Made by a program: the position numbers and the translations under genes. Positions 8,161 through 55,647 of a stretch of 64,000 nucleotides of DNA are shown here, piece after piece. Numbering within the stretch: the stretch's first letter is position 1; each line of letters starts with the position of its first letter. The notes under the pieces are model-generated. The model was not told where the DNA came from. It did not search any database and worked only from the letters and a program-made list of their open reading frames with translations. The DNA lies in contig NZ_CP045455.1 in assembly GCF_030060925.1 (NCBI RefSeq), positions 1,364,001 through 1,428,000 of the forward strand, in the 5' to 3' direction. Source of the DNA: Spiroplasma sp. SV19. GTDB lineage: Bacteria; Bacillota_I; Bacilli_A; Mycoplasmatales; Mycoplasmataceae.

Positions 8161-8694
8161 ACTCAAAATCTTGACCAAGTAGTAAATTCTTTTTCAAGAA
8201 AAGATTAAACTAACTTAAGAATAGAGGTTACGGTCCTAATTGTAATTTCTATTTTTAAACTTGGTTATTGTAATAATGAGATTTATTGTTGCCTTTGATA
8301 ACTTGTTTTCAAAAGTTTTTTTGTGTAGAGTGTGTAAATTTTTACACATAAATCATTATAATCCATAAAACTATCAGTTAAGAAAAGTATCAAATTATTT
8401 GCAGAATATAATTTATTTTGGAATTTATTTTAAAATACTTTTTAGTTTTAGAAGAAAAGAAAAAAGTATTTTTTTATTTAATGAAAAATATTTTTCGTTA
8501 TAATAAGAATATAAGTGGTAAATTATTGTATACACTTTAAAACATATGAACAACTATAAGTATATGGTGAGAAGACCAATGATGAACTATTAATTTATTT
8601 ATTATAATTTAACAAGAATACATTTGATAATGAAATATTAAACATAAAAAATAAGTATTATTTTATATTTTTTATGTTATTTATAGGAGGAAAA
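8161..8694. other. intergenic region upstream of cas9
   Basis: I see no coding sequence here. It contains a palindrome, TGTGTAA-ATTT-TTACACA (8330-8347), that could be an operator or hairpin; a GAAAAATATTTTTC palindrome near 8484; and a TATAAT at 8603-8608 that could serve cas9, which would give an 85-nt leader. No anti-repeat to the CRISPR repeat is found on this side. Confidence 0.5.
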
Positions 8695-11600
8695 ATGAAG
8701 TATAAAAAATTAATTTTAGGATTAGATTTAGGAATTTCATCTTGTGGTTGAGCAATAACAGCTCAAACTTTTGAGGATAAATGAATTTTAGAAGATTTTG
8801 GTGTTCGTTTATTTCAAACACCTGAACATCCCAAGGATGGTACTACTAATGCTACAATGCGAAGAATGAAACGTAGTGCTCGAAGACTAATTAGAAGAAG
8901 AAAAACTCGTAAAAAAGACTTAATATTATTATTTGAAAAAATTAATTTTATCAATAAACAATCATTAGAAGCGTATATGAATAAGCATGCTGCTACTAAT
9001 TTAGTTGAAAATTTTAAAAGAGAAGAATTATATAACCCATATTTTTTACGAAGCATTGGTGTGACAGAAAAGTTGACACAAGAAGAGTTAGTTTGATCAT
9101 TAATTCATGTTGCTAATCGACGCGGATATAAGGACAAATTTGCATTTGAAATGGATGGCGACACTAAGAAAAAAGAAACAAAATTAGATACCGCAATTCA
9201 AAATGCAACAATTGAACCTGGTTTAACACTTTCACAAGAAATTATTACTAATAAAAAGTTTCGTGACCCGCAAAATCAACAAGCAATTTTAGTACGAAAT
9301 AAAGGTGGCAAGGAAAATGAGACCAATTTTCAGTTTCTTTTTGCAAGAGATGATTATAAAAAGGAAATTGATTTATTGCTTAAAAAACAAGCAGAATTTT
9401 ATCCAAGTTTAACAGAAGAGATTAGAGTTTTAGCTTTAGAAATTATTTTTCGTCAGCGTGATTTTGAAGATGGTCCAGGTCCTAAAAAAGTGGAATTAAG
9501 AGAAAAATATAAATTAAAAAATAAACAATTTTCAAAAAATTTTACTCAATTAGAAGGTAGATGTACTTTTTTAACAAATTTATCAGTTGGTTATAAATCA
9601 TCAATTTTATTTGATTTATTTCATATTATTTCAGAACTTTCTAAAATTAGTCAATTTATTGAAGGCAATGTTGAACTAATTAATGAAATTCTTACTTCTT
9701 TTTTGTATAATGAAAAAAATAAAAGGGGTAAGACATTACTAAAAGAAATTCTAGGAAAATATATTGATGATAAAAATTTAATTAATGGAAATGCTTATAA
9801 AAATATTGAGTTAAAAACTAATTATTTAAACTTATTAAAAGATGTTTTTGGTCATGATGTTTTAAAAGAAATTGATATATTTAATTTAGAAAATAATATT
9901 TATCATGAATTAGGAAAAATTATTCATACTAATATTACCCCAGAAAGAAAAAGAAATGCAATAAATCAGTGATTAGTAAAGCACAATATTAATTTGTTAG
10001 AAGAAAAATTAAATTTATTATTAAAACCAAATCCTAGTTTGTCAACTACGGCAAGAACATCATTTACTTGGATGCAAAAAGCAATTAATGGATCTTTAGA
10101 GGGAATTCCATATGGAAAATTTCAAGCGCAATTTATTAAAGAGCAAGTTTTTGAATTACCAGAATCATATGAAAAGCGTTATCAAAAATATCTTAATGGT
10201 GATAAAAAATTCGAGATGTTTGCCCCAATTATTGACCCAGACTTATGACGAAACCCAATAGTATTTCGTGCCATTAACCAAACAAGAAAAGTGATTAAAG
10301 CTTTGTTTGCAAAATATCATTATATTGATCAAATTAATATTGAGTTAACAAGAGATATGGGAATGGCATTTAAAGACCGGAAACATTTAATTGATAAACA
10401 AGAAAATAATATTAAAGAAAATGCTAAAGCAAAAGAATTTTTAATGGCAAATGGCATTACTGTTAATGATAGTAATATTTTAAAATATAAATTGTGGATT
10501 CAACAAAATAAAAAATCAATGTATTCAGGAGATGAAATTTCAATAGGAGATTTGACCAAACCAAATGTTTTACAAATTGATCATATTATTCCATATTCTA
10601 AATTGGCAGATGATTCATTTAATAACAAAGTTTTAGTTTTTAATAAGGAAAATCAGGAAAAAGGGAATCGTTTAGCTAATGAATATATTAAATCATTAGG
10701 AGAAGAAGTTTATAAAAAATATAAAAATAGAGTTAATTACTTTTTGACACAAAAAACTATTAGTTTGAAGAAAGCTGAATACTTACTATGTCCGACTGAT
10801 AACGATGAAATTTTAGAAGGATTTGTTTCTCGTAATTTAAATGATACGAGATATATAACTCGTTATGTAATGAATTGATTAAAAATTGAATTTGCTCTTC
10901 AAAAACGTTTTGGTTTGGCAATTCCTAATGTAATAGCGCTTAATGGTGCAGTTACTTCTCGCTTTAGACGAATGTGGTTAAGAAATTCACCATGAGGATT
11001 AGAGAAAAAAGTTCGTGAGATTACACCATGGCATCATGCTGTTGACGCAATTATTATTTCAAATTTTAATAATTTTTCTGAAGTACAATTTGCAAATGAC
11101 ATTGTAATGTTAATTAATTATAAAAATAAATTATCAGATAAAGAGTGAAATGAATTATATGATGAATTAATTAAAAAATGAACAGGTAAAAGTAATATTT
11201 ATGTTCCAAACATTGAAAAAAGACTTTTATCAATTAAGGAAAATCAAAGTTCTAAGAGTATTCATTATAGTTTAATAGATAATTTAAATACTATTATTGA
11301 TCAACGAATGCCATTAGAATTAGAAAAGAAAGTTATTTCTCAAAACATTATTGATAAAAAAACCAAAGAGGAATATTTAATTAAAACTGCAATACCAGTT
11401 TTCATTGGTGTTAAAGATCCAGATGAATATCTTCTTCAAAATAAGACAATGGAGGGTAATATCCGATATCCCTTTACTTCATATAAGATTGAAAAGAAAA
11501 GTTCTGGTGATTTATTGGGTAGTGAATTGCCAGTAAGCAAAAAAGAACCAGATTTATATAAAAATAATACTCTTAATAATGAGAAATACTTTATAGATAG

Positions 11601-11988
11601 TAAAGGGACAATTTGAAACAATGCATCATATGCTTTTTTAAATATTTGAAGTGACAGTACAACAAAAAAGGGATATAATTATGCATTTGTTAAATTTAAT
11701 GATTATTTAAAAAACAAAAGTGAATATAAAAATAGGGGAATACGATTATATAAAAGTTCATTAACCCGGTATCAAAAAGATTCTAAATATGAATATAAGT
11801 ACTATCAATCAAAAATGGGAAATTCAATTTATGCTAATTTATTAAATACTGCATTTATTCCTATTCTAGAAAAGAATAAAAAAATATTTGGTAAGCAAAA
11901 TTATTATGATTCATTATCAAATTGATTTAAAGAATTAGAATTAGTGCAAATTGATCTTTTAGGAAACCCTACTTTTGTAAAAATTTAA
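8695..11988 (+). CDS. cas9: CRISPR-associated endonuclease Cas9
   Basis: A 1097-residue RNA-guided DNA nuclease, intact over 3.3 kb with many UGA Trp codons, behind a perfect AGGAGG (8685-8690). RuvC-I is LILGLDLGISSCGW (catalytic D11). An Arg-rich bridge helix follows at about residues 55-78 (RMKRSARRLIRRRKTRK). RuvC-II is NIELTRDMG (E550). The HNH domain shows LQIDHIIPYS (D629, H630) and a downstream N/K-x-N pair. RuvC-III is HHAVDA (H781, D784). All nuclease residues are present, so it should be active. Its length is like compact type II-A/II-C Cas9 proteins of mollicutes. The tracrRNA, cas1, cas2 and array follow on the same strand. Confidence 0.97.
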
Positions 11989-12021
11989 AAAATTTATTGT
12001 TATTTTTTAAATTTATGTTAT

Positions 12022-12027
12022 TATAAT
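12022..12027 (+). promoter_or_regulatory. candidate tracrRNA -10 box
   Basis: TATAAT lies 7 bp before the inferred tracrRNA 5' end, downstream of the cas9 stop codon. There is no clear -35. This is motif and position only. Confidence 0.5.
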
Positions 12028-12033
12028 AATGAG

Positions 12034-12150
12034 TTATGAAAATAATTCATATTCTACAATAAAATGACAGTGGCTAAGATAAACGCTTAGTCGTGTAGGA
12101 GGGTCATCCTTATAAAGACCAGTAAACCACCTCTCGTAGGTGGTTTTATT
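12034..12150 (+). ncRNA. tracrRNA
   Basis: The sequence at about 12050-12083 is an anti-repeat to the CRISPR repeat: TATTCTACAATAAAATGACA matches the complement of the repeat exactly, followed by one mismatch and a bulge before the CTAA segment. Downstream elements fit a Cas9 tracrRNA: a CTAAG...CTTAG hairpin, a GGTC...GACC hairpin, and a terminal stem AAACCACCT/AGGTGGTTT with a T-rich end (12124-12150) acting as terminator. It sits between cas9 and cas1 on the coding strand. Ends are inferred from the -10 box and terminator. Confidence 0.9.
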
Positions 12151-12179
12151 TATTTAATTTTAATAATGGAATTATAATA

Positions 12180-13118
12180 ATGTCCTGACGTACATTAATT
12201 ATTAATAAATCAAAAAAAGTTAATATTAAAAATAATAATATTTGTGTAACTGATGAAAATGGGCAAGAAATTTTATTTGCTTTTTCTGAAATAAACTCAA
12301 TAATTTTTGAAAATAATTATACTTTAGTTTCTTGTAATTTATTAGCTAAAATTTGTCAATATAATATTTTTGCTATTTTTTGTGATGAAATATATGAACC
12401 GCGGGGATTGTTAATGTCATTATCTAATCACTTCCAGCCTTATGTTGTTTTTAATATGCAAATAAGTATGTCCCAAGATTTAAAAGATAAGTTATGGCAG
12501 TTAATAATTAAAAAGAAAATATGAAATTCAGCAATTGTAATTGAAAACACAACTGATTTTTTTGATATTGCTGAAATGTTAAAAAGATATGCAAATGAAA
12601 CATTAATAGGAGATCGAACCAATCGAGAGGGTTTAAGTGCTAAAATGTTTTTTCGATCGTTATATGGGAGCGCTTTTATTCGTTTATCTGATGATTTAAT
12701 TAATTCAGCACTTAATTATGGTTATAAAATTTTAGTATCATGTATTTCGCGAACATTAGTAAGATATGGTTTAATTTTACATGTTGGAATTCATCATATT
12801 GGAAAAACCAATCCCTATAATTTATCGTATGATTTTATTGAACCATTTCGTCCGTTAGTTGACTATTGAGTTACTAAAAATTTATATAAGTTAGAAGGTA
12901 AACTTAGTTACAATCAGAGAATATCGTTAATTAAGCTATTAGATGAAAGAGTTGAAATTGATAATCGAATTATGAATGTCAATAATGCTATTAATTATAT
13001 GATTAAAAGTTTTATTTCTTGTTTAAAAGAAAATGATTATAGTTTATTAAAATTACCAACATTGTTATTAAAAGATTATGAAGATGAGGATGAAGAATTG
13101 AATGATGAAGGAGAGTAG
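12180..13118 (+). CDS. cas1: CRISPR integrase Cas1
   Basis: 312 residues, intact when UGA is read as Trp (MSWRTLIIN start). Cas1 hallmarks are visible: the N-terminal beta domain, NREGLSAKMFFRSLYG carrying the first metal-binding Glu, HVGIHHIGKTNPYNL carrying the catalytic His, and DFIEPFRPLVD carrying Glu and Asp. It works with Cas2 to insert spacers into the leader end of the array. The start ATG follows the tracrRNA terminator with no strong RBS. Its 3' end overlaps cas2 by 17 bp. Confidence 0.95.
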
Positions 13119-13437
13119 ATATCGTCAAATGCGAATGCTAATATTTTATGATTTACCAAATAATACAAAAATTGATACTAAAAATTATAATAAATTTCAT
13201 AAATTTTTAATTAAAAACGGATATTATATGGTTCAATATTCAATTTATTGTAAATTATGTTTAAATTATGATGAAGTAAATAAAAATAATAATAAGATTG
13301 AATTAAATAAACCACCAAAGGGTAATATTCGAATTTTAATCATTACAGAAAAGCAATATGAATCAATTAAAATTTTAGTTGGTAATAAGAGCCATCAAGA
13401 AAAATATATGACAACAAAAACAGTTTTGGAATTATAA
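13102..13437 (+). CDS. cas2: CRISPR-associated protein Cas2
   Basis: 111 residues. RYRQMRMLIFYDLPNNTK matches the Cas2 first strand with the conserved Asp, and the FHKFLIKNGYYMVQYSIY segment follows as in type II Cas2. ATG 13102 and 13105 are both possible starts inside the end of cas1. An internal ATG at 13129 has better GGAG spacing but would remove the conserved RYR segment. Translational coupling to cas1 is expected. Confidence 0.93.
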   Translation: MMKESRYRQMRMLIFYDLPNNTKIDTKNYNKFHKFLIKNGYYMVQYSIYCKLCLNYDEVNKNNNKIELNKPPKGNIRILIITEKQYESIKILVGNKSHQEKYMTTKTVLEL

Positions 13438-13438
13438 A

Positions 13439-14603
13439 ATGAATTATAATACAATAAGTTTTAAAGATAATAATCAAGAAGTAAAAATATTTAAAGTTTA
13501 TAATAATAAACTTATGATTATCGGTGAAAATAATAGTGGCAAAACTAGATTATTAAATAAATTAAATTCTGGGTTTTTAGGTAAAGATAGTACTTTTTAT
13601 TTTAATGACAAAGCAGTCGGGTTTGGAGATTATCAAGTTATTTATTTAAAAGAAAAATGGATTTAATTGAAGAAATAAAATTAACAAAAACATCTAATTT
13701 TCGAAATAAATTAATAAAATCTATTAATGATATTATTTTACAATGATAAATATAATGAAGCTACAGAACTATTACAGAAATTAAATTCTTTATTTAGCTT
13801 GATTTTAATGGAAACCGATTTGATTTCAGATCACAATAAAGTACTTAATACTACATTATTTTTGAAATCTAATTTTTCAAATATTTCAATTGAAGGTCTT
13901 GTTGATAAATTATTAAAATTTGATATTTATGATTTAGAACATACCATAATAGATTCAACAAAATATAGCTCATATCAACTTCGTATTTTATTATTAAATA
14001 TTTTAATTCGATATAATGACATAAAGGATAAATTACGTCCGTTAGTTTTTATTTTAGATCAACCAGAATTATTTGGAACAGTTAAATCACTATGAAATTT
14101 AATTACAGAAATTAAAGGATTATTAACTGAAAAGAGTTTAATTATAATGGTTACAAATGCTCCTATTTTATTTAATTTTTCTTTGAAAACATTGAACAAG
14201 TGTATTTCTTAAAAAGAATAAAATAGTTTCTTTTGAAAATATAAATTCAATTGTAATAAAAACAATTACAATATATGCTTTTTTAGAATCAGAAACTAAT
14301 AATTATGAAGTTTTTGTTAAGGATTTGAGTTATGTATTAACTGAAGAAGATATTAATTATGAAAAAGATAATTACATTAAGAATAATATTTTATTTATTT
14401 TACATATTATTTATTGAAATGAAATATCTTTAAAAATATCCGATAATAATGCTTTTAATTTAGAAAATTCACAATTACATTTGGAATTAACGATATCTAA
14501 TTTTATTTTTACATATTTATTTTTAAAAAATTTGGATACTAATATTGTTGTTGATAATAAAACAAAAACTTTTTTTGATAAATGCAGTTGACTATTTAAT
14601 TAA
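13439..14603 (+). pseudogene. csn2: Csn2-position P-loop ATPase-like gene, frame-disrupted
   Basis: It starts one base after the cas2 stop and ends just before the array promoter, the position of csn2 in type II-A loci. The N-terminus carries a full Walker A (GENNSGKT) and the middle carries a Walker B-like strand (LVFILDQPE). Restoring the frame gives about 388 residues, longer than canonical Csn2 and comparable with long Csn2 variants. Four frame changes occur: an A-run near 13653, a T-run near 13735, a T-run near 14177 and an A-run near 14210. No single frame covers it. Assignment to Csn2 rests mainly on position. Loss would impair adaptation but not interference. Confidence 0.65.
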
Positions 14604-14613
14604 TCTTTTTATT

Positions 14614-14622
14614 TGGTATAAT
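14614..14622 (+). promoter_or_regulatory. extended -10 of the CRISPR array leader
   Basis: TGGTATAAT is an extended -10 (TGnTATAAT) ending 10 bp before the first repeat, so the transcript would begin at the repeat border. A TTGACT at 14588-14593 is 23 bp away, too far for a standard -35. Confidence 0.55.
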
Positions 14623-14631
14623 AAATTTGAG

Positions 14632-16251
14632 GTTTTAGTCCGCTGTCATTTTATTGTAGAATATAACAAGCTTGAAGAGCAATTATTGCAGCTGCAGGTT
14701 TTAGTCCGCTGTCATTTTATTGTAGAATATAACATAATATTGCAAAACTTTATATGAATCCGTGTTTTAGTCCGCTGTCATTTTATTGTAGAATATAACA
14801 GCTGTCTATCATCTGATTAATCAGACTACGTTTTAGTCCGCTGTCATTTTATTGTAGAATATAACCCGTTCAATTAGTTGATAATTTACGATTCTGTTTT
14901 AGTCCGCTGTCATTTTATTGTAGAATATAACAATAACTTAATAATCTGATTTGAAAATTAAGTTTTAGTCCGCTGTCATTTTATTGTAGAATATAACTTA
15001 CTATTAATGTTAAGTTCGACGAAATAGGTTTTAGTCCGCTGTCATTTTATTGTAGAATATAACTATAATAATTACATAAAATATGTGTTTTTTGTTTTAG
15101 TCCGCTGTCATTTTATTGTAGAATATAACATAACTTCTCTCTTTTTTGATCGGCCATAAGTTTTAGTCCGCTGTCATTTTATTGTAGAATATAACCATTT
15201 TGCTTCATCCTTCCTTTTGACTTTTGTTTTAGTCCGCTGTCATTTTATTGTAGAATATAACATAATAAAAAAATAGCTCGTAATTGAGCTAGTTTTAGTC
15301 CGCTGTCATTTTATTGTAGAATATAACATAGAGAGTGAGGTTTGTATTATGGCTGAAGTTTTAGTCCGCTGTCATTTTATTGTAGAATATAACTGAAGAC
15401 TATTACTATCAATGTAAAATTTGGTTTTAGTCCGCTGTCATTTTATTGTAGAATATAACTTATTAGCTTATCTTAATTATAACTTTTATGTTTTAGTCCG
15501 CTGTCATTTTATTGTAGAATATAACGATTGAGGGAACTATGTTTTGGTAGGAAATGTTTTAGTCCGCTGTCATTTTATTGTAGAATATAACAAGTTAACG
15601 ACTTATTAATTGGTGGATATGGTTTTAGTCCGCTGTCATTTTATTGTAGAATATAACAAAAACGTGGGGATTATAATAAAATTAATTGTTTTAGTCCGCT
15701 GTCATTTTATTGTAGAATATAACTTTTCTTTCCTTTCCTTACATTTAAAAGCAGTTTTAGTCCGCTGTCATTTTATTGTAGAATATAACGGTCAGGCCCC
15801 TGAGTTCTTGGCTATGTCTGTTTTAGTCCGCTGTCATTTTATTGTAGAATATAACCTTACCGGCTAAAGCCGAAGTTAGCATTGAGTTTTAGTCCGCTGT
15901 CATTTTATTGTAGAATATAACCAAAGTTTTTAAAATTGTTATTGTTTTTTAGTTTTAGTCCGCTGTCATTTTATTGTAGAATATAACAGGATTTAATTGA
16001 AAAAGAAAATACAATTGGTTTTAGTCCGCTGTCATTTTATTGTAGAATATAAACACAATCAACTTTCACGAATTTGATTGGAAGTTTTAGTCCGCTGTCA
16101 TTTTATTGTAGAATATAACCTTCATTAATTTTAGATACAAAATTAGTAAGTTTTAGTCCGCTGTCATTTTATTGTAGAATATAACTTAACTTCTTATCCG
16201 CTCCTATATCGCCAGGTTTTAGTCCGCTGTCATTTTATTGTAGTGTATTAC
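14632..16251 (+). CRISPR. type II CRISPR array, 25 repeats and 24 spacers
   Basis: Repeats are 36 nt, beginning GTTTTAGTCCGCTGTC and ending TTGTAGAATATAAC. They start every 66 bp from 14632 to 16216, so all 24 spacers are exactly 30 nt. All repeats are identical except the one at 16018 (last base A instead of C) and the terminal repeat at 16216, whose last eight bases read TGTATTAC. The degenerate end marks the leader-distal side, so new spacers enter near 14632, beside the adaptation genes. The repeat's 5' GTTTTAG and its complementarity to the 12034 tracrRNA give the crRNA direction as plus. Spacer origins cannot be determined here. Confidence 0.98.
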
Positions 16252-16358
16252 ATTATGCTGAAGCGTTAATCATTCCAGCAGGAATTGATGAATATGCAGT
16301 TGAACCAGGACAAGAAGGTGAAGAATGTATTATTCTTAAGTCATATGTCCGATTTTAA
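16249..16358 (+). pseudogene. manA: 3' fragment of mannose-6-phosphate isomerase gene
   Basis: Directly after the last, degenerate CRISPR repeat a frame reads HYAEALIIPAGIDEYAVEPG to a TAA at 16356-16358. It resembles the C-terminal cupin strand of class I mannose-6-phosphate isomerase. No start and no upstream part of the gene is present, and nothing like its 5' part is seen before cas9. The next gene is a PTS EIIA, a fitting neighbour for a mannose-use gene. The CRISPR-Cas locus, or a deletion linked to it, seems to have removed the rest of manA. Confidence 0.65.
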
Positions 16359-28856: not shown

Positions 28857-29396
28857 CTTTTTTTAGATATTTTATGTTTAGAAAGAAGATGAAAGTAGTA
28901 TTACTTATATATTACTATGTTAGATGACTTTTTAATTAAAATATTAATAATTCTTATTTTTGTTGAAAATTAATTTTTAATAAAGTAAACTTATAATTAG
29001 AAAAAGCTGTTAAAACTTTTATAAAATTAATAATTTTTATTTTAAATAATTAATATATCATCTAAATCATGATTTTTAGAGTAAATACTAAAGTTAAAAG
29101 TAATTAACATAATTTTAATTATTTAAATTATATTAATAATAAATTAATTAGGTCAATTAATATTTGAAAATGTATTAGAACTAAACTTGTTAGTTTTAAA
29201 AATAAAAAATTTATGTAATAAATTTTGAAATATTAATTGAAAACTTATTTATTTTATTGCATACAAACTTAAAAGGGATATTAACAGAAGTTTTGAGCTA
29301 ATTTTATTATTTAATTAAAATCTTAAAATGTAGGAAAGCAAAAAGTTATTACTAACAATAATTAAATTAAAGAACAAAGGAAAGTAGGATCTGGTG
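28857..29396. other. AT-rich intergenic region before hsdR
   Basis: About 540 bp with no supported gene on either strand. It probably contains the hsd promoter, but no box stands out against the AT background. AAAGGAAAGTAGG at about 29378-29390 is the hsdR ribosome binding site. Confidence 0.5.
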
Positions 29397-32300
29397 ATGC
29401 TGGAAAAAGAATTTGAAGCAATTTTTATAAATAAACTTATTGATAATGGTTATGAATATCTTGAAATGGATAAAATTTTAGAGAAAAGAGGAACTATAGA
29501 AAACATTTTATTACTTGATTTAATTGAAGAAAGTATTAAAAGATTAAACCCCAGAATAAGTCAAAAAAGTATTCATGATGCTATTAAACAAATTAAAGCA
29601 ACTTCTTCTTCTGATTTAATTATTGCTAATGAAGCTGGAATGGACAAAATAATCAATGGAATCAAAGTATTTGATAATGAAAAAAAGATGATAATAACTT
29701 GTAAAATTGTTGATTTTGATGATTTCAAAAATAATAAGTTTATTGTTACAAATCAGTTTAAAATGTTATCTACTCATCCGACTTCTAGAACTCAAATTGT
29801 TGATATAGTAATATTTCTTAATGGCTTACCAATTATTATTGGTGAATTAAAAAATCCTGACAATTTTTCGAGAAAAACAATTGAGTTAGCATATGATCAA
29901 CTGCAAAATTATCAAATATATTTAAAAGACTTGTTTGTTTTTAATTGTTTTAATTTTATTAGTGATAAATTTAGTAATAAATATGGAACAATTACATCTT
30001 CTTATGATCGATTTTTTAACTGGTTTGACAAAAGTAAGCATGAAAATTTATTAGATAATTTTATTAATGGATTATTATCTAAGGAAATAATATTAGATAT
30101 TATTAAAAATTTTTTGTTCTTTACTATTGATAACAAAAATAATTTAAATCATAAAATTATAGCAGGACATCACCAATATCAAGGTGTGAATAGTGCAATT
30201 AATAGAATATCTCAAAACAAGGATAATAAAGGTGGAATATTTTGACATACTCAAGGTTCTGGTAAGTCATTTTCAATGGTATTTTTAACAAAAAAATATA
30301 TTGATTTAAATCCAAAAGCAACAATTCTTGTAATAACAGATCGAAAGGATTTAGATTTTCAATTAGCTGATACATTTATTAATTCTAAAAAATATTTAGG
30401 TCAAGAACCTGAACGCATTGAAAGTATTAAGGAACTTAAAGAAAAACTAAACAACAAGAGGCAAAATGGGATTTACTTATCTACAATCCAAAAATTTACT
30501 GATGAAATTGGGGTTTTATCAACAAGAGATGATATATTAATTATTGCTGATGAAGCTCATCGCTCACATAATTTAGATCTTAATTTTGAGATAAATAAAT
30601 TGCAATTAAAGATAAAAGAAGGAAATGCTCAAAGACTACGAAAAGCTTTCACGAATGCTGTATTTGTTGGTTTTACCGGAACACCGATTGAACAAGAGGA
30701 TAGGAGTACGAAAGATATTTTTGGGGAATATATTTCAAAATATTTAATGTCAGATGCTATTAAAGATGGAACAATAGTTGATATTTTTTATGAACCACGG
30801 AAAAAAGAGTTGCATCGAGATATTGAAGAGTTTGAAAAAATTGATAATGAATATGAACTTATTAAGCAAAAATATAAGAGTGATACATTCATCTATGAAG
30901 AAGCAGTTAAAACATTAGGATTAAAATTAAATACTTTTGAAAAATTAATTGAAAATGATGGAAGAATAGAAGCAATTAGTAGTGATTTTATTAAGCATTA
31001 TAAATCACGAATTAATATTCTAAAAGGTAAAGCAATGTTTATTGTGTTTAATCGAAAATGTGCCATAAAATACTATAAGGAAATAATTAAGCAAGCACCA
31101 GAATTAGAAAAACACATAAAAGTAATAATGACAGCAAATAAACAAGCTGATGCGAAGGAAGTTTTAGAGTTAATTGGAAGAGATGAAGACAAAAAGGTTT
31201 TTGCCAAAGAATTTAAAGATCCAGAATCAGATTTTAAAATTGCAATAGTGGTTGACATGTGGTTAACTGGCTTTGATGTTCCATGTTTAGATGTTATTTA
31301 TATTGATAAATGACTAAAGATGCATAATTTAATGCAAGCTGTAGCGAGGGTTAATCGAGTTTATAATGATGCAAAAACCAATAAAGTTAAATCATCAGGG
31401 TTAATTGTTGATTATATTGGACTTTGAAAAAATTTAAATAAAGCTCTAGATTTCTATAATAATCATGGTGATGAGGTATCTATTACAGGAAAAACAAGTG
31501 ATGAGGTCAAAGAGCAATTACTTACAACAATCGATGAAATATTGAATAAATATTTTAGTGAATTTAAGGAAAAAATGTGCGCAAAGCAGGACAATGAAAT
31601 CAAAAATTATATGCTTATTGAGGAATTACATAACCATTTAATTAAAAATAACTTAGTTAAATCACTTATTGATGATAGTAAAGGATTGACAAAAATGTTA
31701 TCAGTTTCACTTGGAATTCTAAATGAAATTGAAATAAATGCAACTGTAATTTTAATTGTTCTTAGAAAAGAAATTATCAACTTTGAGTTAGGAAAAATAG
31801 ATGTTGAAACGGATGTTAGAAAAATTTCAACAAGAATTAATAATGCAATCATATGCAAAGGTAATTTTGAGGAAAAAGATTATAAACCAGTATCATTAAA
31901 TGATTTAATAAATCACCTCTCTATATTAAAAACAAAGACTACTAATCTTGAGTATAATGCTGAATTAATTAAAATTACAGCATATAAAGTAGTAGATGAA
32001 TTAAAAAAACATAGTCTCATTAGAGCCAAAAAATTGTCTGAAAAGATTGACCAATTAATTAATCAGTTAAAAGAAGGGCATATTTCTTTAAAAGAATTTA
32101 AAGAAATATTAACTGATATTGCTGCTGAAGTAGTTAACGATTCTGCTGCTTCTAAATTAAATTTATCGGAAGCTGAATATTCCTTTTATGAGCTGATTTC
32201 ACAAGAAATATATACAAAAAAGGATATTACTAACAAAGAATTATTAACCATAACACATGAAATTTATGATAAAGTAAAAAACATTATAACTGATTTATGA

Positions 32301-32465
32301 AGAATTAGACCAGCAGAAAAAAGTAAGGTTAAAACAGAAATTAAGTTAATTTTAATAAAACATAAGTTTCCTAAAGAAAGTTATTCTGATAATGAAAATA
32401 GTTTACGAAGTCAATTAACAAGACAAATTGAAGAACTAGTAGAAAATGATTTTGAGTTTGAATAG
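29397..32465 (+). CDS. hsdR: type I restriction enzyme R subunit (HsdR)
   Basis: 1022 residues, intact with UGA Trp. The N-terminal nuclease domain has the ...FLNGLPIIIGELKN strand (E-x-K-like). The helicase core follows: HTQGSGKS (Walker A) near residue 283, ILVITDRKDLD, LIIADEAHRSH (DEAH box), FVGFTGTPI, and a C-terminal RecA domain with DMWLTGFDVP and LMQAVARVNR. The C-terminal helical region runs to residue 1022. A GTG at 29394 precedes the chosen ATG. The protein translocates DNA and cuts it in the HsdR2M2S complex. HsdM follows 12 bp later. Confidence 0.95.
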
Positions 32466-32477
32466 GAGAATGAAATA

Positions 32478-34004
32478 ATGCACAAAAATATGAATGTAGA
32501 ATTAGAAAATAAGTTATGAGCAGCATGCGATGAACTGCGAGGGAACCAGTCATCAGAAGAATATATGCATATAATTATTGGAATTATGTTTTTAAAACAT
32601 ATGTCCGATAAGTTTAATATTGCACTTAAAAAAATTGAAATAGATTTTCCTGATAATTTTCAGGAATTAATTAAGGACAAAGATTTTTTAATTACAAAAC
32701 ATAATGTTTCTTTTATTATTCCTGAAAAAGCTAATTGAACTTATATAGAACAATATGCTTCACAACCAACAATTGGAGAAGTAATTGATAATGCTCTGCT
32801 TGAGATTGAAAATATTAATCCATCATTAAAAGGGCTTTTTAATAAAAACTATAATCGTCCTGAATTAGACCAAATTAAATTAGGGAAAGTTGTTTCAATT
32901 TTTTCAAATGTAGATTTAAATGAATTTGGAGAAGATATTATTGGAAGAACTTATGAATATTTTTTAGGGCATTTTTTTAAGAAACAAGGTCAAAAAGGAG
33001 GAGAATTTTATACTCCTAAATCTGTTGTTGAGTTAATGGTTAATATTTTAAACCCGACACAAGGAACTTTGTATGATCCTTGTTGTGGAACGGGTGGAAT
33101 GTTTGTTCAAGCACGAAAAAAATTAGAAAAAGATAACAAAGATGTTGATGGGTTAGTTATTTTTGGACAAGAATCACAAACAAAAACATGACAATTAGCA
33201 AAAATTAATTTATTGATTCATGGTTTTAATGAATTAGAAATTAATTTAGGGCATAAATCAGCTGATACTTTTTCTGATGATTTATTTAAAAACAAAAGCG
33301 CAACTTTTGATTATGTGTTAGCAAATCCACCTTTTAATATTAAAAAATGAAATCAAGAAAATTTGTTAGATGATAAACGTTGACAATGAGGGATTCCCCC
33401 CAAAGGAAATGCTAATTATGCTTGACTTTCACATATTATGGAAAAATTAAATAAAACAGGTAAAGCAGCGGTTATTTTAGCGAATGGATCATTATCTTCT
33501 TCTCAAAAAAATGAAATAGAAATTAGAAAAAATTTTTTAAAAGACAATCTAATTGAAGGCATTATTGCTTTGCCAGACAAATTATTTTATACAACTGGAA
33601 TATCTGCTTGTATTTGAATCTTAAATAAAAATAAGAAAAATAATAATGTTTTAATGATAAATTGTGAATCATTAGGAGTAATGGTTAATAAAACATTACG
33701 TGAATTAAGTGAAGATGACATAGCAAAAGTTACAAAAATATATAATGATAATCAAATTGGAGATGTTAATATACCTGGAATTGCTAAAACAATTAGTTGA
33801 AAAGAAATTGAGGACAATGATTATTCATTAGTTCCCGGAAGGTATATCGAAATTGTTGAAGAAAAAATAGATATTAAACAAACTAAAGAAGAAATAAAAG
33901 AACTATTTACTGAATTAACATCATTGTTAAAAGAATTTGATGAATTAAAATTAGAATTACCAAACGCAATTGAAAAAGCATTAAACTTTGAAAAAGAAGA
34001 ATAA
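32478..34004 (+). CDS. hsdM: type I DNA methyltransferase M subunit (HsdM)
   Basis: 508 residues, intact. The N-terminal helical domain is followed by GGEFYTPKSVVELM, the SAM-binding motif DPCCGTGG (motif I), and the catalytic NPPFNIKKW (motif IV). The C-terminal helical region (EIKELFTELTSLL) would contact HsdS. ATG 32478 follows GGAGAATG; an ATG at 32490 is an alternative. The stop overlaps a short ATG (TAATG, 34002-34006) where an hsdS would be expected, but only a 23-codon frame follows. The m6A specificity must come from the hsdS genes at 34378-37351. Confidence 0.95.
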
Positions 34005-34377: not shown

Positions 34378-35483
34378 TTAAATTAATATTTTAATTAATT
34401 TATCTTTGATTTTATTTATAGTAATAATTAATTTGTTTAATAATATAAAAACATTATCAATATTTTCATATTCAAATTTTAGTTTTTTCAATTCTATATT
34501 AAGTAAATCCTTTTCAGATAAAACAGGCATTTTAGTTCCTTTTGATAACATATTACATTTATTTCAAAAATCTTCATTAAATAAATTATAAAATAAAGAT
34601 AATTTATTTTTTATGATTCTATACGCATATAATGTTCCATTAATATCTGCTTCATATGGTGTTAAACCAAATTTTTTTGATAAGTTCTAATTGAAGAAAA
34701 TAAAAATATATTTTCTGTTACATAAAAACTATTTGTTTTATAAGTATTTTTTCCTTCATAATTATATATTAGTGGACTATTTTTTTCTAAAACTTTAGCT
34801 GACACCTGAGAAATGTTTTTTTTAATATTTTTTTCTTTTATTAAAATTGAATTTAATTGAAAAACTTTTGTTGAACTAGGTAAAATACTAATTGTATGTT
34901 GTATTTTTTTAAAAAAATTAGAATGTTTTTTAAAATTATTTCAAAGGGTTCTATAATGTCAATTATATTACTAATATCTTTTTACAGTTTTTTTAGAATC
35001 TATTCGTATAAGATTTGAGTATTTTTTAAATTTTTCATCACCAAATTTTTCTATAATGTCAATTATAGATTTTTGCTCATCAATATTTGGAACTTCTATT
35101 TTAATATCAGCTATATTTTTAAAATACACATGTGGTTGCGCACTACCTTCTCTTACAGAAATAATATTTTTTTTAATACTTAAGATTTTGTAATTTAAAT
35201 ATTTTTGCAAAATTTCATGTTTATTTTTAACTTCTAATGTAAAACAATCTGCTGCAAAAAAATCTGTTTTTGGAATAGAAATAAAACCTGCGTTAATTCC
35301 TGATGAAGAAATACATAAAATTTCTTTTTCTCGATTTTTAAATTTATAGTATCCCTTAATATTTTTGCCAGCAGAAACTATTGGATAATATCCCTGTAAA
35401 TAATGTTTACTAAAATTTTTTTTGTGGTCAATTTCTCCTTTTCTTGAAATTACTATTTCTGAAAGTGTTTTTATAATAGCCAT
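34378..35483 (-). pseudogene. hsdS: type I specificity subunit HsdS, probably the expressed copy, frame-disrupted
   Basis: ATG at 35483 (MAIIKTLSEI) has a good AAAGGAGAGAG upstream. The first target-recognition domain (GEIDHKKNFSKHY to PHVYFKNIADIKIEVP) leads into the conserved helix DEQKSIIDIIEKF and ends at 34971. A second half (DISNIIDIIEPF..., then NTYKTNSFYVTENIFLF, then TPYEADINGTLYAYR) continues in other frames to TAA 34378-34380. Two indels (near 34971 and 34685) break it. Full length would be about 368 residues, normal for HsdS. Inverted repeats at the start and in the central conserved region match the plus-strand copy at 36282. Confidence 0.75.
35051..35074 (-). repeat. 24-bp inverted repeat, left copy (central hsdS region)
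   Basis: It is the exact reverse complement of 36747-36770. It encodes the KSIIDII segment between the two HsdS recognition domains in each copy. A partial 19-bp version lies at 34951-34969. Confidence 0.9.
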
Positions 35484-35488
35484 TATAA
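35469..35488 (-). repeat. 20-bp inverted repeat, left copy (hsdS start)
   Basis: It is the exact reverse complement of 36277-36296 and covers the ATG and the first codons (MAII) of both hsdS copies. The element is itself nearly palindromic (TTATAATGGCTATTATAA). Recombination here would invert the segment carrying the recombinase and the RBS. Confidence 0.9.
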
Positions 35489-35532
35489 CTCTCTCCTTTT
35501 TATAAATTATATACTTATTTTGGGAGGTTTTT

Positions 35533-36257
35533 ATGGAAAAGTATTTAAATTATTTAAGAGTTAATAATTATTCTAAAAATACAATATATGCATATAAATC
35601 AGCATTAAAAGATTTTTTTAATTATATTAGCAACGATCTTAATAATGTTGAACAAATATTACAATATTTTAGCAAATTTAAAATGAAATATAGTCCTGCT
35701 ACATTAAACTTTAAGAAAATAGTTATTATTAATTTCCTAAAGTTTAATAAAAATAAATTATTTTTAAAAATTCAAAAATTAAAATTCCCAAGGATTCAAA
35801 TAGATTTTTAAAGTTATTTCAAAGGAACACTTTAATAAAAAAATAAAATTAATTAAAAATTTATTTGATAAAAATCTATTTAAAATTTTTTTTTTACTGG
35901 TATTAGAATAGCAGAATTTACAAATTTAAAAATAAATGAAATTACAAATACATTAATAATATTTGGCAAAGGGGCAAAATATCGAGAAATACCAATAACT
36001 AAAAAAATTAATGATATAAATTTTTATAATTATATAAATCTTTCAAAAAATATATTTATAAAAAAATAAAAGAATATTGGGATGAATGAGTTACACCGCA
36101 CTCTTTTAGAAGATCATTTTGTACTAACTTAATTGAAAGCGGCGCAAATATAAAAATTGTAAGTTTGATTATGGGACATTCAAAAATTGAAACAACGGCA
36201 AGATATATTCATTTTAACAAAACTAAAATTAGTAAAGAACTTGAACAACACCTATAA
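35533..36257 (+). pseudogene. tyrosine recombinase next to invertible hsdS genes, frame-disrupted
   Basis: ATG 35533 follows GGGAGG. The N-terminal SAM-like domain (YLNYLRVNNYSKNTIYAYKS) is open to 35811. Downstream frames hold the catalytic core: TGIRIAEFTNL (Arg I), FGKGAKYREIPI (Lys), HSFRRSFCTNLIESG (H-x-x-R) and GHSKIETTARYIH (His plus nucleophile Tyr). All catalytic residues exist, but at least two indels (near 35811 and 36067) separate them. XerC/D-like enzymes next to hsdS clusters, such as HvsR in Mycoplasma pulmonis, catalyse hsdS inversion. That role is inferred from position and the inverted repeats. Confidence 0.8.
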
Positions 36258-36278
36258 ATTAAAAATATAGGTGTTTTT
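36248..36278 (+). terminator. terminator between recombinase and silent hsdS
   Basis: ACACCTATA pairs with TATAGGTGT and is followed by a T-run that runs into the 20-bp inverted repeat. It blocks transcription into the plus-strand hsdS, which also lacks a recognisable RBS. Confidence 0.8.
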
Positions 36279-36296
36279 ATAATGGCTATTATAAAA
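36277..36296 (+). repeat. 20-bp inverted repeat, right copy (hsdS start)
   Basis: Partner of 35469-35488. It covers the ATG at 36282. Confidence 0.9.
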
Positions 36297-37351
36297 TTAA
36301 AAGAATTAGGTGAATTTAAAGGGGGTATTTCATCTTTAGATAAAAGTAAATATAATCAAGGTATTAATTTTGTAAATTACATGGATATTTTTAAAAATTT
36401 TTTTATTGATGATGATACAAAATTAAGTTTATATAACGCATCAGAAAAAGAAAAATATAATTATAATTTGAAATACGGAGATGCAATATTTACAGCATCA
36501 TCAGAAACACCAGAAGAAATAGCTATGAGTACAATTTATTTATCAAATAAAATGGCTATTTTTAATGGTTTTTCAAAGAGATATAGATTTAATCATAAAA
36601 TTTTACTGCCTAAATATGCAGGATATTTTTTAGAAGTCCATGTTTTAGAAAACATGTAAAAAAAAATTTGTACAGGTTATACTAGATTCAATATTTCTCA
36701 AAAAACTTAAGTGAAATTAAAATAAAAGTACCTAATTTAGATGTTCAAAAATCTATAATTGACATTATAGAGCCTTTTGATATTTTAAAAAATAATTTTG
36801 AAAATATAAATAAAAATATTATTAATATAATTTCTAAATTAGGATTTTTAGTAATTAATAATAAAGGAGAAAAAAATTAACTATATTAAGCAATGTGAAA
36901 AAAGAATGAAAATGGAGTATATGTTCAAACATCTAATATTGGTGATTTTGATAACAAGATTAAAAATAAAGTTTATTATAATACTCTACCTTCTAGAGCT
37001 AAATTAAATTTTAAAAATAATGTTTTGTATATTTCAAAATTAAATGGAGAAAGAAAATTTATTTATAGAGAACATTATAATGAGGATTTTATAATTTCAA
37101 ATGGAATGTGTGGAATTACAGCAAATGAAAATAGAAAATATACTTTATATGCTTTTTTACTATCGGATTTCTTTTATAAAATTAAAAGTATTCAGTCAAT
37201 AGGTACTACAATGAGGGGAATTAATGATAACATATTAAATTCTATAGTTAATAAATATTATTTTAATTCTAATTTAAATTTTTACCTTAAGAAGTTATTT
37301 AATATATTATCAAAAACTTCTATTATTATTGAAAAATTATCTTTTTTTTAA
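36282..37351 (+). pseudogene. hsdS: second, probably silent hsdS copy, frame-disrupted
   Basis: It begins MAIIKLKELGEF with the same start repeat as the minus-strand copy but with a different recognition domain (KGGISSLDKSKYNQGINFVN, GDAIFTASSETPEEIA). The conserved block VPNLDVQKSIIDIIEPF lies in another frame after a break near 36655. A second recognition domain (ENGVYVQTSNIGDFDN, GTTMRGINDNIL) follows at about 36895-37351. It has a terminator directly upstream and no RBS, so it should be silent in this orientation. At least two indels are present. Confidence 0.75.
36747..36770 (+). repeat. 24-bp inverted repeat, right copy (central hsdS region)
   Basis: Exact reverse complement of 35051-35074. 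Recombination between the two would exchange second recognition domains between the copies. Confidence 0.9.
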
Positions 37352-40163: not shown

Positions 40164-40378
40164 TAAAAGTTAAATTTTTAATTTAAATTTAAAAATTTAT
40201 ATGTTGTATTTTTAATGTCTAAAGGATATTGTTTTTCATTTAGGAAAAATGTAGTAAAAATTTATATGTAATTTACTTATGAATTTGCAATAAAATATAA
40301 TTTAAGAAAGAAATTTATTTAATTTATAAAATTAGATGTTTAAAGGTAATAATTTTATATATGAAAGGAAATTCAGAA

Positions 40379-40669
40379 ATGAAATTAAGTGATAAAGAAA
40401 TAAAAGTTTGGAACAATGCTACTGATTGTCATTGTGGAGCACAACCTCAAGATGAGGCCAAAGATCATAAAATATGTGGTATATGTAAAAAAATAAATAA
40501 ACTAATGATTTATGGTGCACACGAAAGCGTAGAATTGCAAAGAAATTCTAAATGTGCATGAAATATTGATCATATAATTCCTCGCTCAAGAAAAGGAAAA
40601 AATAATATTGATAATCTTAGAGCAGTTCATATTAGATGTAACAAAAATAAAGGAAATAAATTTATGTAA
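40379..40669 (+). CDS. small HNH endonuclease, copy 1
   Basis: 96 residues from MKLSDKEIK, with AAAGGA upstream (about 40364). Zinc-binding pairs CHCGAQ and CGICKK precede the HNH core NIDHIIPRSRKGKNNIDNL followed by VHIRCNK. An upstream ATG at 40361 would add six residues. It is about 60% similar by eye to the protein at 42547. The two copies flank the OPA transporter gene. HNH proteins of this size act as nicking or homing-like nucleases or defence nucleases; the role here is unknown. Confidence 0.85.
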
Positions 40670-42546: not shown

Positions 42547-42831
42547 ATGAACTTAAGTGAAAAAGAATTTAAAATTTGAGTGAAAGCAAAGCAATGTAAC
42601 TGTGGAGCAATTCAGCAAGATAGAGTTGGAGACCATAAAATTTGTCCGTTATGTGGAAAACCTATGATTTATGGAGCTCATGAAAGTGTTAAAAGTCAGC
42701 GAAATTCTTATGGTGCTTGGAATATTGATCATATTATTCCTAAGTCCCAGGGTGGTACAAATCATATAGATAATCTTCAAGCTGTTCATACTTTTTGTAA
42801 CCAAAAGAAATCTAATCGTTTTAGGTTTTAA
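42547..42831 (+). CDS. small HNH endonuclease, copy 2
   Basis: 94 residues, MNLSEKEFKIW start with GGAAAGGA upstream. Zinc pairs CNCGAI and CPLCGKP, shared MIYGAHESV segment with copy 1, HNH core NIDHIIPKSQGGTNHIDNL, and VHTFCNQKK. Paralogous to the gene at 40379; both are intact while the transporter between them is frameshifted. Confidence 0.88.
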
Positions 42832-51908: not shown

Positions 51909-53446
51909 ATGATTAAAAGGAAGAGTGAATTAAAACCATTGTCGTTTACAACAACAATGCGAAATCCAGAAAGAATAAAAAATTTTATAAATATCATAAT
52001 GGAATTTGAAGGTAAGATTCTTACAAATGAATTAATAAATAAAATTATATTTAAAATTATAAGTAAAAAATTATATATTCCAACTTATGTAGAAAAAACA
52101 ACAAAGTTAAAGAAACAATTAATTTTTGAAAATAAAGAATTTAATGAAGAAGAAACGCTGGATATAATTAGAAATAGTTCACAAAATCATAAAGAAGCAG
52201 GATTTGATTTTGGTTGACCTTCAAGATTTGACACTTGATACAAAATAATGAAAGAATTTGGTTTTATTTATTATGAAATAGGAAAGCCTATAGAGCTATC
52301 TGATTCTGACAAAAAACTAGTGAAGGCTTTAGAAAAAGAAAACATTAATTTAGAGCAACAAGTTTTTTTAAATGCATTAGTAAAATATCAAAGAAACAAT
52401 CCATTTAGGAGAGTATTAAATGAGAACATACCATTAGTTTTATTATTAAAAACAATTATTGGACTTAAAGAAAATATCAAAGATAATCCAGGAATTTCTA
52501 TAAAGGAATTGTCGTTATTAATTTGTTGACCTAATTCTGATTATAAATCATTAGTTAATTTAATAATTAATTTAAGAAGACAATTCAAAACACAAATTAG
52601 TGATGAAATTATATATGAGGAGTGTAAAAAAGTATTAAAAATTACAGATAGCCAAGAAAAAAAGTTTAAGTTAAATAATATATTATATGAATTACCAGAT
52701 GAATTTGTTAGAAAAATGAAATCAACTGGATTGTTTTCTATAAGAGGTTATGGAAAATTTATAGATGTTAATTCTAATGAATTAAATAAAATTAATTATA
52801 TTCTTAAAAATATTCTACTGAATATGATTATTATAAATATCTTGGAACTATTGATCAAAATTTAATTAATATTCAAGATAATGATAATATTTTATTAAGT
52901 CAGAAAAATGATTTATTTATGAAATGAGTACAGCACTTTGAATTAAATGAACTAATTAAAGAAATAAAAATTTTGGAAAATAAAAATAAGTATTCAAAAC
53001 ATGCAGTTTTGAAACATATTAATGGTCCTTTAAGATTAGAATTTCTTATTGCATTAATTTTACAAAAAAAATTTCCTGAATTAACAATATTAGCAAATTA
53101 TAAAACAGATGATGAAGGTATACCTACATCTTATGCACCCGGGGGAAATTCTGACATAATCTGTAACGACGGAGATGGAACTGTACTATTTGAAGTGACA
53201 TTGCTTACTGGAACTATTCAAAATATAAGAGAGATGCCGTCTATAGTTAGACACTTAAAAGATACTTTAATAAATTATATCAATAGTTTTTCAGTTTTAG
53301 TATGTCCAAAAATTTATGAAGATACTATTGAGTATTCAAAATTTGTTAAATATAAAGATAATTTAGATATTATTCCAATTTCAATAAGTGAATTTATAAG
53401 TAAAGTTAAAATCTTTAATAGTATAAGAGATTTTAAAAAGAATTAA
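51909..53446 (+). pseudogene. AlwI-family type IIS restriction endonuclease, one frameshift
   Basis: Starts 9 bp after the methyltransferase stop. LSFTTTMRNPERIKNFINII is the N-terminal signature of the AlwI family (R.AlwI cuts GGATC sites). The C-terminal part contains LRLEFLIALIL and PGGNSDIICNDGDGTVLFEV, a PD-(D/E)xK-like nuclease arrangement. A single frame change in the A5 run near 52804-52808 separates the two parts; restored length is about 512 residues, normal for the family. The set of two m6A methyltransferases plus AlwI nuclease is coherent. Confidence 0.75.
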
Positions 53447-54061: not shown

Positions 54062-55647
54062 ATGAAAATTAAGATAAAAAGTTTTAGAAATATTATTGAT
54101 GAACTGGAAATTGAATTAGAGAAAAATAAAATTACCACAATAATAGGCACAAATGGTTCAGGTAAGACAAATATTTTAGAAGGGATACATTTTTTTGTAA
54201 GTAATTATAAAAATACCGATGTAGTAGTAACTTCAAATTTTACTTCTTATAGTGGGATAAAAGAAAAAGAATTAATTGATAAGAAAGAAATTAATTTTAC
54301 ATATGAATTATCAGACCAAAAAATTAGAGAAGTAGAAAAATATTTAAAAGAAATAAAAGTACCATTAGAAAAAATTAAAGATAAAAAAATACTAATTAGT
54401 AGATCAAAAACTCAAAATGGATTTTCTATTAGCCCCACTTCAAGTTTAATTGAAATTTATAATGAATTATTTAAAATAAAGAAAGAAGTTATACCTAATA
54501 AGTATTATTCATTAGATGGGGAAAGTGATTATTGACCAAATGTTGAAGAAATTAAAAAGCACTTAGTAATAAATCATTACAAAATGGAAACGTATTAAGA
54601 CCTATATTTGAAACAATAATAAAACTTAGAGATATTTTTCTTGATAGGCCCTTAATTGAATTTATTAATAATGCAACCGAAGAATTTAATGTGAATCACC
54701 ATACAAATATATTAAATTTGGCTGATGAAGAATTAAGAAAAGAAGTTGAATTATTATTATATTTTATTGGCGAGGAAGCACTAGAATATGCACAAGATTT
54801 TTTAAAATTAAATTCTAATCAAACTAATGATATAAATAGAATGGAAAATATTAAAAATAAAATTATTAAATTAGGAAATAAAAAAATAGACGAAATTTTT
54901 AATTTTTTTGATTTATATGCTAAACCTGAAATAAAATTTGATAATACAAATTTATCAATAACCACAGAATTTAATAATGATGAAATTTTATTTGGAGATC
55001 CAATAAACCAACAGAATAATTCAGCAGGTTATAAATCAATATTTTGTTTTGTTTTGCGATATGAATATCTTATTGAATATGCAAAGAAAAATAATAAAGA
55101 GATAATACTAATTATTGATGAATTAGATAAAAATTTGCATCCAATGTTACAATCGCAGTTAATTGCTTATATTAAATCTAGAATTGAAGAAAGTAATATT
55201 TACTTAATTATTTCAACTCATTCACCATTCTTATTAGAAATGGATGAAAAATTTAGTAATTATTATGTTGCATATAAAAAACAAGATGGGAGTCTAAACT
55301 TGTCCTTGAAAAATACTTTTAGTAATAGTGGTGCAGTGTCTAGTTTTTTAGTATTAGCAAAAAAAGTATTAGATTCACATGAAATACTTATGAAAATTAA
55401 AAAGCCAAGATTAGTTATTTTGGAATCAAGTAGTCAAGATGATATTCAAATTTTAAAAGCAAGAGTTAATAAAAAAATTGATAATGTTGAATTTGTTTTA
55501 CAAAGTTCTGATCCCATTATTGGAAAAGATATTGAAAAAGTAATTGATCATCCTAATGATTTAACAGAAATAGAGGTCTTACTTGAGAATAATCAACGTA
55601 TATTTATTTCGAAAAAGGTAATAGATATATTAAAGAATGAAGATTAA
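54062..55647 (+). pseudogene. AAA/OLD-like ATPase (SMC-related), one frameshift
   Basis: ATG 54062 behind AGAAAGGAC. TTIIGTNGSGKTNILEGI is a Walker A of the OLD/RecF class. The C-terminal half has SAGYKSIF (signature), LIIDELDKNLHPMLQ (Walker B) and LIISTHSPFLLEM (switch His). After that there is a 120-residue tail without a recognisable TOPRIM domain. The frame changes once near 54565 (HL, then SNKSLQNGNVLRPIF). Restored length is about 528 residues. Stand-alone AAA_15-type ATPases of this kind often belong to defence or restriction-linked loci; no obvious partner nuclease is beside it. Confidence 0.7.

Follow-up and report, generated by a model that had tools for sequence, protein, structure and literature searches.

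A degenerate, probably locked type I restriction-modification locus with paired inverted repeats in Spiroplasma sp. SV19

Organization of the locus

We analysed a 64,000-nucleotide stretch of the Spiroplasma sp. SV19 genome (contig NZ_CP045455.1, positions 1,364,001 to 1,428,000; hereafter the window), which contains a type I restriction-modification locus composed of hsdR, hsdM and two hsdS copies placed head to head around a tyrosine recombinase gene. All frames were read under the genetic code of this genome, in which UGA codes for tryptophan, and Pfam recognised the HsdS domain (PF01420), the N- and C-terminal domains of integrases, HsdM and HsdR in the window proteins. The original prediction had described the hsdS genes as the expressed and the silent copy of an invertible locus; the identities of the two hsdS and the recombinase were confirmed, but all three are frameshifted gene remnants. 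We consider it highly likely that the locus is what remains of a Mollicute type I restriction-modification system whose specificity was switched by site-specific inversion, and that it is now degenerate and probably locked. The features of the locus are listed below in window coordinates (TRD, target-recognition domain; RBS, ribosome-binding site).

29394-32465, plus strand: hsdR, intact, 1023 amino acids, named HsdR by Pfam
32478-34004, plus strand: hsdM, intact, 508 amino acids, named HsdM by Pfam
34381-35483, minus strand: hsdS(-) remnant, long form, on the RBS/promoter side; open only as far as 34974
34974-35483, minus strand: N-terminal half of hsdS(-), open, 170 amino acids, with TRD1, the first coil and an RBS
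34950-34967, minus strand: site B2, 18 bp, second copy in hsdS(-) of the mid-gene core TATAATTGACATTATA
35050-35075, minus strand: site B1, 26-bp inverted repeat with 36746-36771
35469-35488, minus strand: site A of the hsdS(-) start, 20 bp, TTATAATGGCTATTATAA
about 35491-35496, minus strand: RBS of hsdS(-), GGAGAG, within the A-to-A segment
35522-35527, plus strand: RBS of the recombinase
35533-36257, plus strand: tyrosine recombinase remnant, between hsdS(-) and hsdS(+)
36247-36275, plus strand: terminator hairpin, overlapping the recombinase stop, directly before hsdS(+)
36277-36296, plus strand: site A of the hsdS(+) start, 20 bp
36282-37351, plus strand: hsdS(+) remnant, short form, on the terminator side
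36746-36771, plus strand: site B of hsdS(+), 26 bp

The 20-bp inverted repeat at the two hsdS starts is exact where it had first been placed, as is the mid-gene repeat, whose true length is 26 bp and not the 24 bp reported; both pairs are real, but the third, 18-bp B copy had been overlooked. When the region was simulated 300 times with a first-order Markov model, the longest inverted repeat between distant positions had a mean length of 14 bp and never exceeded 19 bp (observed: 26, 20 and 18 bp). Inverted repeats beyond chance expectation are therefore present before the 5' TRD and between the TRDs, next to hsdR and hsdM genes that adjoin at least two variable hsdS copies, here as remnants. 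The asymmetry noted at the outset also holds, with an RBS before the minus copy only and a terminator hairpin (-11 kcal/mol, z -4.1, T run at its end) abutting the start of the plus copy.

Decay of the cassette

In hsdS(-), stops appear after position 34974, and the homology to intact relatives shifts through frames -3, -1, -3 and -2 (tblastn). hsdS(+) is interrupted by stops at 36657-36659 and at about 36878-36889, with a change from frame 1 to frame 3 near 36701-36707. The homology of the recombinase is spread over two frames with internal stops (tblastn), and its catalytic residues (R, K, HxxR, H, Y) can still be read, split over frames. hsdR and hsdM are each covered in a single frame by intact relatives (tblastn). 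Genome-wide searches found no hsdS besides the two broken copies and no integrase-family gene besides the broken recombinase. No full-length HsdS can thus be made and the recombinase gene is not functional; since both hsdS copies are interrupted and no other was found, we assign the locus to the decayed, and not to the working, members of its class. For the same reason, together with the frameshifts in the only integrase-like gene found, the terms "expressed and silent pair" and "invertible" fit the ancestor of the locus only, even though its architecture, including the asymmetry of RBS and terminator, is the one seen in intact relatives.

Many of the breaks coincide with stretches of 6-10 A or T; 19 A/T runs of at least 7 nucleotides are present in the 3-kb cassette. 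This could mean that the locus is alive and still inverts, its frameshifts being due either to misassembly of A/T runs or to tracts of reversible slippage, a reading to which the catalytic residues legible in pieces of the recombinase also lend something. We nevertheless regard it as quite improbable, as it needs several independent errors within one 3-kb stretch. Sequencing error is an unlikely cause of the breaks, because hsdR, hsdM and cas9 of the same window have many A/T runs of 6-7 nucleotides and are unbroken over 1023, 508 and 1104 codons, respectively, and because the cassettes of the intact relatives, which are also A/T-rich and have broadly similar, mostly somewhat lower, run densities, carry no frameshifts.

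HsdM is 51-55% identical to the HsdM of six relatives with an intact cassette. A congeneric species (G012; L109, 5667-9112) has 82% DNA identity with the window over part of hsdR and hsdM, ending inside hsdM; its hsdR and hsdM are truncated and its cassette is absent. Over the shared part, the ratio of non-synonymous to synonymous substitution rates (dN/dS) is 0.13 for hsdR and 0.10 for hsdM, which means that strong purifying selection acted on both genes through most of the divergence. Either the loss of hsdS is recent or the HsdR and HsdM subunits are still in service. The latter could be the case if the 170-residue half of hsdS(-) dimerised as a half-size HsdS and so directed HsdM and HsdR to a bipartite, palindromic target. 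The half gene has an open frame and an RBS and retains TRD1 and part of the coil, the low dN/dS values concern two intact genes for which no other hsdS was found, and a truncated HsdS with altered specificity has been described for NgoAV (work cited in PMC7394358). Still, this simplified system seems unlikely to us: an open stretch of 510 bp is unremarkable given the spacing of the breaks, the tail of the half gene derives from a frameshift, in G012 the cassette is gone and hsdM is truncated, and low dN/dS may reflect past selection only.

Intact homologous loci

We gathered homologous loci from the same family and order by searches with HsdM, HsdS and the recombinase. The arrangement hsdR-hsdM-hsdS-recombinase-hsdS was identified in Spiroplasma platyhelix PALS-1, Williamsoniiplasma lucivorax, Mycoplasma todarodis, Mycoplasmoides alvi (where the recombinase is split) and several metagenome-assembled genomes (MAGs). 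When the recombinase of the first of the six closest loci is taken as reference, those of the others share 58-67% identity with it, and all conserve the R, K, HxxR, H and Y residues. Most loci have an hsdS start with an RBS facing the 5' side of the recombinase, and the 3' side of the recombinase ends in a hairpin and a T run abutting the other hsdS start; no obvious hairpin was seen at the recombinase 3' side in loci L051 and L052. Beyond the close relatives, most recombinase matches (L106-L108, L110-L115 and L117) showed no hsdS within about 5 kb by profile and were set aside. The pieces in the window are homologous to this cassette, with a tyrosine recombinase of about 240 residues, its gene broken, between head-to-head hsdS copies.

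A second, independent relic is present in genome G090 (L116, 3951-6908), in which hsdM, hsdS and the recombinase are all fragmented; this genome shares its genus with G017, whose locus is intact. In G063, which is close to S. platyhelix, the locus (L099, 4089-9557) contains four hsdS and one recombinase, and is apparently a larger shufflon; its blocks correspond to S. platyhelix sequence, with their order rearranged.

Evidence for inversion

Recombinase and hsdM point in one direction in L051, L052, L099, L100, L103, L116 and the window, and in opposite directions in L033-L037, L049, L050, L059, L060 and L102. The clearest comparison is that of S. platyhelix with the Spiroplasma MAG A83_bin3_2, which are collinear over hsdR-hsdM at 81% identity, while a segment of about 830 bp running from A to A is 85% identical in the opposite orientation and ends at the A sites and hsdS starts. 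This inverted segment contains the recombinase, the RBS/promoter and the terminator. In G063, the blocks shared with S. platyhelix start and stop near B sites. The claim that such loci are invertible is supported by two close species, and not by the window itself, where the hsdS pair and the sole integrase-like gene are broken.

Putative recombination sites A and B

Sites A and B share the arms TAAT-N4-ATT and differ in their centres (GGCT in A, TGAC in B). The A core is TAAT-GGC(T/A)-ATT, with a GGGA centre in L049, and the B core is TAAT-TGAC-ATTAT, with variants; in the window, the A core (TAAT-GGCN-ATT) and the B core (TAAT-N4-ATTAT) are identical within the locus. In 17 loci, the 13 consecutive columns of the B core show no difference between copies belonging to one locus (100% identity), whereas two of these columns, both third codon positions at which the changes are synonymous, agree between loci in only 57-62%. 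Outside the core, copies within a locus are no more alike than copies from different loci. The central 8 bp of B are identical in 45 of the 45 within-locus pairs (maximum of 24 in 20,000 permutations). An 11-bp block of the A core is likewise identical within loci; the A-site columns of L059 are shifted by one base, and the between-locus values for A were therefore not used.

Perfect identity within each locus, synonymous variation between loci and B flanks that agree no better within a locus than between loci make the A and B cores look like a crossover core that requires identity between its partners. The inverted repeats might instead be mere homology of two opposed hsdS genes, with no bearing on site-specific recombination, and the 95 bp around B are indeed 76% alike between hsdS(-) and hsdS(+), as paralogues would be. 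We find this explanation very hard to sustain, since the identity peaks in a core of 11-13 bp with the pattern just described, the flanks of B do not follow it, and an A-to-A inversion separates two close species.

The duplicated B site and the inter-domain linker

In 15 of the 17 compared loci with two hsdS genes, one hsdS contains B twice, exactly 33 codons apart, and the other contains it once; neither hsdS has a doubled B in L051 and L101. For this count, G063, with its four hsdS, was not scored, and one copy in the window and one in L103 were recognised by eye. A pattern search detected the 99-bp B doublet in 17 of 320 genomes of the order, and a reversed-pattern control detected none. 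In the window, where one base has been gained, B2 and B1 are 100 bp apart instead of the 99 bp of intact relatives. We also considered the 100-bp direct repeat in hsdS(-) as an illegitimate duplication and rejected it, given that the intact relatives carry the repeat at exactly 99 bp and in frame.

The long linker of the window adjoins a TRD2 that resembles the TRD2 of the short forms in L033, L035 and L038, and the short form of the window has the TRD2 type of the long forms in these loci, a pairing that an exchange at B2 would produce. In AlphaFold models, the short form has a single helix of 33 residues between the TRDs, and the long form a helix of 20 residues, a break and a helix of 41 residues. 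A fold search with the short-form model retrieved HsdS structures with template modelling scores (TM) of up to 0.57; the long-form model matches HsdS domain by domain only (query-normalised TM below 0.4), and its overall geometry is uncertain. By sequence, the only HsdS match in the PDB was a weak one. The doubled B could move the inter-domain linker. We tentatively suggest, as a possibility that we hold with considerable doubt, that the intact Mollicute loci are three-part switches in which TRD1, TRD2 and the 33-residue linker are shuffled independently, altering the geometry or spacing of the two half-sites as well as their identity.

Proposed mechanism

We hypothesize that, in the intact loci, a crossover between the two A sites, which overlap the ATGGCTATT starts, would flip the central segment with the recombinase, the promoter/RBS end and the terminator end, and would in this way choose which hsdS is expressed. 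A crossover between B sites, located in the coil between the two target-recognition domains, would swap TRD1 between the hsdS genes, and the use of B1 or of B2 would decide whether the 33-residue linker is exchanged along with TRD1 or left next to TRD2. A single recombinase would use both A and B, whose different centres (GGCT versus TGAC) would keep them apart and should prevent recombination of A with B. Both the switching of the promoter and the effect on the linker are, at this stage, what the arrangement of the sites suggests. In the window, decay of the recombinase and of both hsdS genes would have fixed the A-to-A segment in the state in which the minus copy used to be expressed.

Several points weigh against seeing the locus as the decayed remnant of such a switch. 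Several of its breaks sit at A/T runs, where slippage or assembly error is possible; A/T-rich cassettes occur in intact relatives as well, so that low guanine-cytosine content alone is no proof of decay; and the count of frameshifts is a lower bound. The evidence for inversion consists of comparisons between species, not of both orientations in one population, and that the recombinase acts on A or B is something we infer from sequence.

Relation to known systems

A class of inverting type I loci, with repeats ahead of the 5' TRD and also between the TRDs, has already been described (PMC7394358, PMC4948785, PMC5903667), and the locus in the window is best seen as a decayed member of it. In Streptococcus pneumoniae (Spn556II/SpnD39III, PsrA) and Streptococcus suis (PMC4948785, PMC7394358), duplicated hsdS genes with inverted repeats at these two positions form four- or six-way switches, with a recombinase encoded in or near the locus. 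There, the expressed hsdS locus is set apart from the spare copies, whereas in the Mollicute loci the inverting segment itself includes the promoter/RBS, the recombinase and the terminator, and a second copy of the mid-gene site can be present.

The system first named as a parallel was hsd of Mycoplasma pulmonis, in which inversion of hsdS driven by the tyrosine recombinase HvsR changes type I specificity (PMC2268961, PMC4948785, PMC9465063); this likeness is one of description, taken from citing papers. A closer published match is the hsd locus of Mycoplasma agalactiae, a type I locus with several hsdS and an integrase-like gene, 'int', in which methylome diversity is ascribed to hsdS and whose authors state that recombination there is not known (PMC9465063); it, too, is likened to the window by description and not by sequence. 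Closer still is the S. platyhelix PALS-1 locus (NZ_CP051215.1; L037/L048), which has the same hsdR-hsdM followed by head-to-head hsdS around a tyrosine recombinase, the same A and B sites, one long and one short hsdS, and an RBS side and a terminator side, and which differs in that all its genes are intact and its A-to-A segment has the opposite orientation relative to hsdM. Our literature search found no publication on the S. platyhelix hsd locus or on such a locus in Spiroplasma, and no paper describing the A and B cores with shared arms or the 33-codon doublet; as the primary M. pulmonis paper lay outside this search, we claim no priority.

Other features of the window

A type II CRISPR-Cas system is located at 8674-16256, with intact cas9 (1104 amino acids) and cas1, a cas2-like open reading frame (ORF) and an array in which about 25 repeats recur every 66 bp. 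At 51909-53446, a restriction endonuclease of the AlwI family is split in two ORFs (51909-52865 and 52919-53446) and adjoins split ORFs resembling an adenine methylase. An AAA ATPase like the AriA/PtuA/GajA defence proteins, at 54062-55647, is also split in two ORFs. Two similar small HNH-nuclease-like ORFs (40361-40669 and 42547-42831) flank a split transporter gene.

Significance

The relic in the window is ordinary in kind, and its value is comparative, since it led to intact homologous Mollicute loci. These let the recombination core, the flip of promoter and terminator and the doubled mid-gene site be read from sequence alone, and they provide testable predictions for organisms in which type I switching by inversion is suspected, such as M. 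agalactiae. The locus also shows that a switch of this kind can be lost from a genome that keeps hsdR and hsdM intact, and what these subunits then do becomes a question of its own.
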